Shown one piece after another: positions 4,207 to 5,640 of a stretch of DNA of 64,000 bases (positions within the stretch are counted from its first letter, which is position 1; every line of letters starts with the position of its first letter). The DNA comes from Candidatus Roizmanbacteria bacterium (lineage in GTDB: Bacteria; Patescibacteriota; Microgenomatia; UBA1406; GWC2-37-13), in assembly GCA_012798265.1 (NCBI GenBank), contig JAAZNM010000005.1, forward strand, positions 1 through 64,000, read 5' to 3'. The translations under genes were made by a program, and so were the position numbers. The notes beneath the pieces are model-generated. The model was not told the origin of the DNA and ran no database searches. It saw only the letters and a program-made list of their open reading frames with translations.

Positions 4207-4225
4207 AATGCAACTTAGTTGCATT
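4207..4225 (-). promoter_or_regulatory. Candidate Fur/Zur operator (9-1-9 inverted repeat)
   Basis: A perfect palindrome with 9-bp arms and one central base (AATGCAACT-T-AGTTGCATT). It lies 12 bp upstream of the regulator start, within the promoter region of the metal-uptake operon. The 7-1-7 symmetry of its core is typical of Fur-family sites. Confidence 0.7.
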
Positions 4226-4260: not shown

Positions 4261-5451
4261 TTATTCTTTGGCACAACCGAATTGAAAACCGCATGAAGGA
4301 CAGGCTTTGGTCCAGCTGCTTGGATCGCTTTTTTTCTCGCCGGGAATAGTAGCGCCGCAACCGGGGCAACAGTAATCATCATACCGCTCGGACGTCTTCA
4401 TTAACTCCGATAAAGTTTTATAGGTAAGTTTCCCTTGCTCGCCGAATATTTTTTCCGCCAGATTACCGAATGAAGCAGCCGTCACCGACGGACAACTGCC
4501 GCCGGTTATCTCGGGGTCCTGCTTAAGATAATGGCTGTAGGCCAAACGGATTAGGTCCGGATTGAAAAAACGGCTATCCGCACCGACTGGCCCATGGTCG
4601 ATAACAAAGGCGGCATTTTTTTCATGACGAGTCAGATCTTCGGCCCGGTTATAAATGACCTTATGGTACATTTTTGCCTCATCGCTTTGGCCGTTAACAA
4701 CGGCATTTTTATAAAGATAAAGCCATTCGTTAAGTAGGGAATCACCAAGAATGGTATTGAAAAAGTCCACCGATTGACTCATATCGGAGAAACCGATTGT
4801 TTGGTAAACACGCTTGAGCAGCTCTTCGGGTTGGCTTGCCTCATAAAGTAACGGCTGTCTTAGAAAATCCTTTTCGTCTTTTATCTCCATAAACTCCGAT
4901 CTGTCACTTATAGGAAGACCCGACAGAATCCGCCAACTCTGGGTAAATGACGAGTCTTCGTTAAGATATCGGACAATCTGCGTCTCCACCGCATCTCCCG
5001 ACTTTTTGAGATAAACGAAAAGGAATCCGTAATCGCCGAACCCTTCGATACCGGGCGAGGGAGGGGAGAGCCAAAAAGCCAAGTTGGCCTGAGAACTTTT
5101 AAAAGCCTTCTCAATAGCCGAAAAACCGTCGAACTCCGCCTGTTCCCGACTTGACGCGGCACCGAAAGGAGGAATTGCCTGCCTGTAACTCTCTTTTATG
5201 GGAGAAGCTATCCCATCGTAATAAAAACCGTCTTCCCCTAAACGATAATGTATCCGGTCAAAAGGAACTTTGCCGACAAACTCACCTAAAAAACGGTAAA
5301 TATTATTATCTATATAGGAAGAAATTTTTTCCCAGGGATCGCCTTTTTTTATCTGTTGGGATACAAGGGCGATTTCGTTGTCAACATTGTAGAAATGGGA
5401 AAGGGAATAGGTTTTGCACTCGAAGTGACGACAGTTATCTTTACGTTCCAT
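4261..5451 (-). CDS. Unknown zinc-ribbon protein under cobalamin riboswitch control
   Basis: A 396-aa soluble protein that I do not recognise. The only clear domain is a C-terminal zinc ribbon at about residues 361-393: CCPGCG, a 20-residue spacer, then CPSCGFQFGC. The central part is mixed alpha/beta, with a conserved-looking GIEGFGDYGFLFVYLKKSG segment and an FVIDHGPVGADSRFF segment that could hold catalytic His/Asp residues. No signal peptide or membrane helix is seen. The leader is a full cobalamin riboswitch, so expression should fall when adenosyl- or methylcobalamin is abundant. This predicts a role in B12 salvage, or in a B12-independent substitute reaction. The gene is followed by the Fur-type regulator after 65 bp holding that operon's operator. 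Confidence 0.75.
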   Translation of the reverse strand: MERKDNCRHFECKTYSLSHFYNVDNEIALVSQQIKKGDPWEKISSYIDNNIYRFLGEFVGKVPFDRIHYRLGEDGFYYDGIASPIKESYRQAIPPFGAASSREQAEFDGFSAIEKAFKSSQANLAFWLSPPSPGIEGFGDYGFLFVYLKKSGDAVETQIVRYLNEDSSFTQSWRILSGLPISDRSEFMEIKDEKDFLRQPLLYEASQPEELLKRVYQTIGFSDMSQSVDFFNTILGDSLLNEWLYLYKNAVVNGQSDEAKMYHKVIYNRAEDLTRHEKNAAFVIDHGPVGADSRFFNPDLIRLAYSHYLKQDPEITGGSCPSVTAASFGNLAEKIFGEQGKLTYKTLSELMKTSERYDDYCCPGCGATIPGEKKSDPSSWTKACPSCGFQFGCAKE

Positions 5452-5454
5452 AAA

Positions 5455-5640
5455 CTCTCCCTGCGACGGGGAAAATCATCGATTTGGTCGGTCTTCGGAC
5501 TCGGCCTCGCCAAAGCCCAGCTTAAGCTGGACGAAGGCGGGCTCTCACCGCTGCGGCACAGTCCGGGATTTACACCCGGTTCCCTCTTTGAAAAAATAAG
5601 CCTTCTTGTTTTTAAAGACAATGGCTTACAACACCAAATC
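5455..5640 (-). promoter_or_regulatory. Cobalamin riboswitch
   Basis: Read on the minus strand, the conserved core is present in order: AGAGGGAA, then GGGTGTAAATCCCGGACTGT, then GCCGCAGCGGTGAGAG (the B12-box region, about 5540-5560), a variable hairpin (CCAGCTTAAGCTGG), then GAGTCCGAAGACCGACC (about 5486-5502). These match the cobalamin riboswitch consensus around the B12 box and the downstream GAAGACC helix. The element ends beside a GGGAG Shine-Dalgarno-like sequence and the ATG at 5451. Translational control by masking the ribosome site is therefore plausible; no intrinsic terminator is evident after it. Confidence 0.93.

Follow-up and report, generated by a model that had tools for sequence, protein, structure and literature searches.

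The protein of 396 amino acid residues encoded behind a cobalamin riboswitch in the window, the whole 64,000-nucleotide stretch of DNA analysed here, belongs to a family with genetic links to class II (adenosylcobalamin-dependent) ribonucleotide reductase (RNR; NrdJ) and to a PduO-type adenosyltransferase. What the data support best is membership of the protein in an adenosylcobalamin-RNR module that is wanted when B12 is scarce, and the riboswitch-protein pair probably helps these bacteria cope with such scarcity, because the cassette usually adjoins the B12-dependent RNR in related genomes. Going one step further, we tentatively favor an intracellular role in corrinoid assimilation, in which the protein, produced at low B12, would keep NrdJ better supplied with adenosylcobalamin. 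These tiny-genome bacteria, assumed here to be B12 auxotrophs, appear to need scavenged B12 for DNA precursors, and their B12 acquisition and handling are poorly described. A class-wide, riboswitch-controlled family beside NrdJ and PduO is a concrete, testable candidate for such handling. Our literature search, outside which most subscription journals lay, found no paper joining cobalamin riboswitches with these bacteria in such a manner.

The riboswitch ahead of the gene, proposed in the initial annotation, was confirmed by a covariance-model search of the whole window: cmscan matched RF00174, whose gathering score is 31.5, at 57.5 bits (E 1.2e-11). This is the single RF00174 match in the genome of origin (954 kb, 99% complete). 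The aptamer lies in the 5′ leader and ends 17 nt before the ATG, and the ribosome-binding site GGGAG is located between the two. The coordinates of the features are listed in the table.

Table. Features of the riboswitch-controlled gene, its leader and its downstream flank.
Feature	Position	Strand	Basis
Cobalamin riboswitch aptamer RF00174	5469-5653	minus	cmscan full-length match, model 1-189
Putative expression platform, hairpin TTTTCCCC-GTCGCA-GGGAGAG	5455-5475	minus	MFE and centroid folds
Riboswitch-controlled protein, 396 aa, ATG start	4261-5451	minus	ORF
Conserved alpha/beta core, residues about 57-180, with Arg102 and Ser129-Pro130	4912-5283	minus	alignment of 66 homologues
Cys320, GGSC(P/G) motif, segment predicted to be disordered	4492-4494	minus	Cys in 64/66 homologues
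C-terminal zinc ribbon (predicted), Cys362, 365, 384, 387, and terminal Cys393	4273-4368	minus	alignment, weak Zn-ribbon profile matches
Perfect 9-bp palindrome AATGCAACT-T-AGTTGCATT, in the gap separating the 396-aa gene from the Fur-family gene	4207-4225		

In both the MFE and the centroid folds, the Shine-Dalgarno sequence forms the 3′ arm of the putative platform hairpin, and the 221-nt leader had a folding z of -3.2. A CCCC-GAGCA-GGGA hairpin pattern precedes the start codon in 40 of the 66 homologues, against 1.8 expected from shuffles, and the median distance from aptamer end to start codon was 13 nt at 25 related loci. The aptamer of one relative (G036) looks shortened, with the same hairpin retained. 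This layout is the ordinary anatomy of cobalamin translational repression; the anatomy is seen in the sequence, and from it we infer the repression itself. The ligand-bound state is predicted to block translation via the hairpin: with plentiful cobalamin, the aptamer would close the hairpin and so occlude the ribosome-binding site, stopping translation, and with scarce cobalamin, the protein would be made. In a less certain step, the protein may then, for example, bind or reduce scavenged cobalamin or hand it to PduO or NrdJ, with the Cys320 loop, the zinc ribbon and the terminal cysteine serving as possible corrinoid-, metal- or electron-handling parts. The regulatory half of this proposed mechanism is strong.

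As the initial annotation had stated, the protein has no recognised family. Searches of Pfam, NCBIfam and PHROGs yielded no family match, with only sub-threshold zinc-ribbon matches to residues 350-391 in Pfam and NCBIfam, and a sequence search of the PDB returned only coiled coils and zinc fingers. The protein is predicted to be cytosolic, having neither a signal nor a hydrophobic or membrane segment (maximum 19-residue mean hydropathy of 0.62). Two AlphaFold models (pLDDT of 68.6 and 70.9, pTM of 0.63-0.64) comprised an alpha/beta core and a helical region, both predicted with reasonable confidence, then a disordered linker containing Cys320 and, at the C-terminus, the ribbon. In the AF2 prediction, pLDDT was mostly 80-92 in the core, with a weak patch at residues 85-99, and below 50 across residues 316-356. 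Fold searches, run with two models against the PDB and with one of them against viral structures, returned no match under E 0.001. A profilin-like core was at most hinted at by recurrent weak longin/roadblock/LOV-like matches and was not counted as evidence. The B12-binding Rossmann domain (PF02310) and the RNR catalytic barrel (PF02867/PF13597) were found neither in Pfam nor by the fold search, and Pfam gave no TSCPD-type domain ahead of the cysteines. Transporter features (BtuCDF, ECF S-component, DUF6580) were likewise missing, the protein having no hydrophobic segment and matching no known transporter family.

Six cysteines dominate the conserved residues, one in a Gly-Ser-Cys loop, four in the CxxC...CxxC ribbon and one near the C-terminus. 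Each ribbon cysteine is kept in 63-65 of the 66 homologues, which bears out the four-cysteine ribbon of the initial annotation, and its zinc binding is predicted; the additional conservation of Cys320 and Cys393 (52 of 66, with 12 gaps) had been overlooked. In the core, Ser129-Pro130 is kept in 63-65 of 66. The conserved cysteines suggest metal, corrinoid or redox handling.

The initial annotation also called the protein an orphan, which holds for family databases but not for genomes, since homologues occur across the class, mostly behind the same riboswitch. A simple search detected homologues in 36 of 116 relatives and a profile search in at least 103 of 372 genomes of the class, both lower bounds for a family that diverges fast. 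A single-sequence scan of genome contigs found nothing and a 14-sequence alignment was too divergent, whereas a tighter six-sequence set worked. The named homologous records are mostly from Candidatus Roizmanbacteria. A clear homologue outside the class (L172; 518 aa) has a GGGCP motif and the ribbon, and upstream of it lies a sub-threshold cobalamin riboswitch match of 26 bits. A 650-aa form in family f10 matched at 1.7e-38 with a profile that already included it and at 4e-7 in an independent first pass. Phylum-wide matches in prolyl-tRNA synthetase were discarded as chance ribbon matches. At up to 11 loci from genomes of the same family, the median pairwise identity was 28% for this protein, compared with 46%, 66% and 74% for PduO, NrdR and NrdJ, respectively. 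The protein is a member of a fast-evolving, class-wide, unnamed candidate-phylum family.

RF00174 was matched in 186 of the 372 class genomes, in 100 of them above the curated cut-off. In 64 of the 65 genomes for which both riboswitch and family gene were listed, the riboswitch lay directly upstream of the gene, with both on the same strand. Many of the other 38 gene-carrying genomes come from families f18/f31, and when six of their loci were re-scanned with relaxed settings, all six had an AdoCbl-type riboswitch match, four above the curated cut-off. In f18/f31, PduO is immediately followed by the family protein, and a cobalamin-clan riboswitch precedes PduO, the protein or both; at L154, an AdoCbl-type riboswitch lies between the two genes. 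In genomes of the same family as ours, most loci with wide context read NrdR-NrdJ-PduO-[riboswitch-protein]-small conserved gene, often with a convergent thioredoxin gene beside them, and PduO is outside riboswitch control in most of these genomes. Thus, the homologues keep the riboswitch and adjoin class II RNR and PduO, in line with the initially guessed link to B12 salvage or ribonucleotide reduction; they neither lack the riboswitch nor fall into a known B12-unrelated family, and the aptamer scored above threshold.

Class II RNR is present in 99 of the 116 relatives and in the genome of origin. Among genomes at least 90% complete, RF00174 occurred in 52 of 69 with RNR and in 1 of 9 without (Fisher p 3e-4, kinship ignored; class III RNR is left out of the RNR tallies). 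Insertions some 350-400 aa long or longer, probably inteins, break up several class II RNR genes (G003, G030, G043, G067, G071, G100, G103 and L125 877-4425), and a group I intron match of 67.8 bits (L136 2988-3174, G358) lies directly 3′ of a riboswitch-controlled gene.

A DUF4430-DUF6580 pair also follows the riboswitch in families f19, f20 and f34. Transcobalamins have a C-terminal domain of the DUF4430 type (PMC4350170), and for this reason we consider the pair a likely B12 importer of these bacteria. Cobalamin riboswitches upstream of this pair were observed at L114 (5282-7119), L152, L128, L132, L135 and L136, with a second riboswitch ahead of the family protein at L128 and L136, and the DUF6580 gene frequently adjoins NrdJ. 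The idea that the family protein replaces the DUF6580 importer was dropped because both coexist in many genomes.

The genome of origin encodes one RNR; it belongs to class II, scoring over the TIGR02504 cut-off, and the gene after it is PduO (TIGR00636). Its NrdR, NrdJ, PduO and small gene stand together on another contig without the riboswitch-protein cassette, so the cassette has moved to its present spot before a Fur-ZnuA-ABC operon. The genome has no BtuC-type permease except a zinc-type one, and DUF6580 was not found with one profile, which did give matches in 37 of the 116 relatives.

We rank corrinoid assimilation first among the readings. Arguing for it are the synteny with NrdR, NrdJ and PduO, the full-length, above-threshold riboswitch, its near-constant position directly ahead of the family gene, and the recurrent hairpin, the riboswitch control common to PduO and the family protein in f18/f31, the likely importer pair behind the same riboswitch, and the higher frequency of RF00174 in genomes with RNR. 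The equipment of the genome of origin, with class II RNR and PduO and lacking DUF6580 and a non-zinc BtuC-type permease, and the near-invariance of six cysteines in so divergent a family point the same way. On the other hand, the protein could not be recognised as a member of any family or fold of corrinoid binders, reductases or chaperones, divergence this fast is unusual for a dedicated enzyme, PduO mostly escapes riboswitch control in same-family genomes, and the window copy no longer neighbours PduO or NrdJ. A bolder version, which we hold to be rather doubtful, is that the protein represents a new candidate-phylum-specific fold and family in which cobalamin is handled by a Gly-Ser-Cys thiol on a disordered loop together with the zinc ribbon, as a minimal B12-assimilation route feeding class II RNR without BtuCDF-type import.

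The tight synteny with NrdJ and NrdR would also suit a B12-sparing partner of class II RNR, which would bind NrdJ at low adenosylcobalamin and aid its turnover. It might, for instance, serve as an additional cysteine-rich tail that delivers electrons, or it might reactivate NrdJ or load its cofactor. The protein conserves six cysteines, as many as the cysteine-rich domain of NrdJ uses, and the family profile matched one NrdJ (18 bits, E 2.6e-5) across the SCG motif and the zinc ribbon at its C-terminus. However, that match concerns one NrdJ and is mostly generic ribbon, Pfam gave no TSCPD-domain match, and the cysteine-rich domain is already complete in the NrdJ proteins here, so that a second one would be unneeded. 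We rank this second and regard it as unlikely.

Placed beside it, and judged similarly improbable, is a B12-starvation response outside cofactor chemistry, in which the B12 level would be a signal and the protein would adjust growth, replication, host attachment or secretion. The very fast evolution and variable ends of the protein are consistent with this, as are the long charged, partly membrane-spanning proteins behind riboswitches at the same syntenic place in other families and the type-IV-secretion-like ATPases that are neighbours in several lineages. The homology of the long proteins (f9, f12, f22, f25, f36, f42) to the family was not established, however (hhalign probability 0.1-26%), the window protein lacks a signal or membrane segment, and the co-occurrence with RNR and the riboswitch control shared with PduO in f18/f31 argue against such a role. 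The long proteins are charged, of 560-830 aa and without recognised family (L134 5080, L120 5500, L125 5242, L130 2077, L122 3052 and L116 2760), some with hydrophobic C-terminal segments. The type-IV-secretion-like genes (PrgI, VirB4/TraG, VirD4/HerA-like ATPases) recur near the locus at L138-L141 and L143-L148.

The gene lies on the same strand as the downstream Fur-ZnuA-ABC zinc-type uptake operon, 65 bp from it, and this adjacency could suggest that the protein is part of zinc/manganese uptake. The Fur gene, however, has its own perfect palindrome in the gap, which is probably the operator of that operon, and relatives with wide context place the protein elsewhere, mostly beside PduO, making membership in the operon very improbable.

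Riboswitches often control isozymes. A classic arrangement of this kind was observed in G056, where a 98.7-bit cobalamin riboswitch precedes MetE, the B12-independent methionine synthase (L061/L032, G056:C12:1021-1192). Regulation as in MetE or NrdAB is the model for the reading of the initial annotation that fared worst, a B12-independent replacement of RNR or of some other B12 enzyme, and we give it hardly any credence, since the protein has only 396 aa and no similarity to RNR or radical enzymes in Pfam, NCBIfam, PDB sequences or folds, and class II RNR itself is present.

Compared with known cobalamin riboswitches (RF00174, and AdoCbl-II RF01689 in f18/f31), the element described here has the same full-length model match, 5′ leader position and ribosome-site hairpin platform, whereas the controlled gene is outside the known targets of synthesis, transport and isozymes. 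The C-terminal cysteine-rich domain of NrdJ transfers electrons by means of six cysteines and zinc, and in some cases a gene of its own, NrdJb, encodes it (PMC5704485). The 396-aa protein is like it in its six cysteines, C-terminal zinc ribbon, terminal cysteine and class II RNR neighbourhood, but differs in cysteine spacing and has an unrelated N-terminal core, and it was therefore not classified as NrdJb-type. The DUF4430-DUF6580 pair, a transcobalamin-like domain and a small membrane protein, shares the riboswitch and the neighbourhood in related families, whereas its proteins are membrane-bound or exported and unrelated in sequence, and a single genome may contain both systems. PduO-type ATP:cob(I)alamin adenosyltransferase is encoded by the adjacent gene, under the same riboswitch in f18/f31, but it is a known enzyme family of slower evolution, unrelated in sequence to the 396-aa protein.
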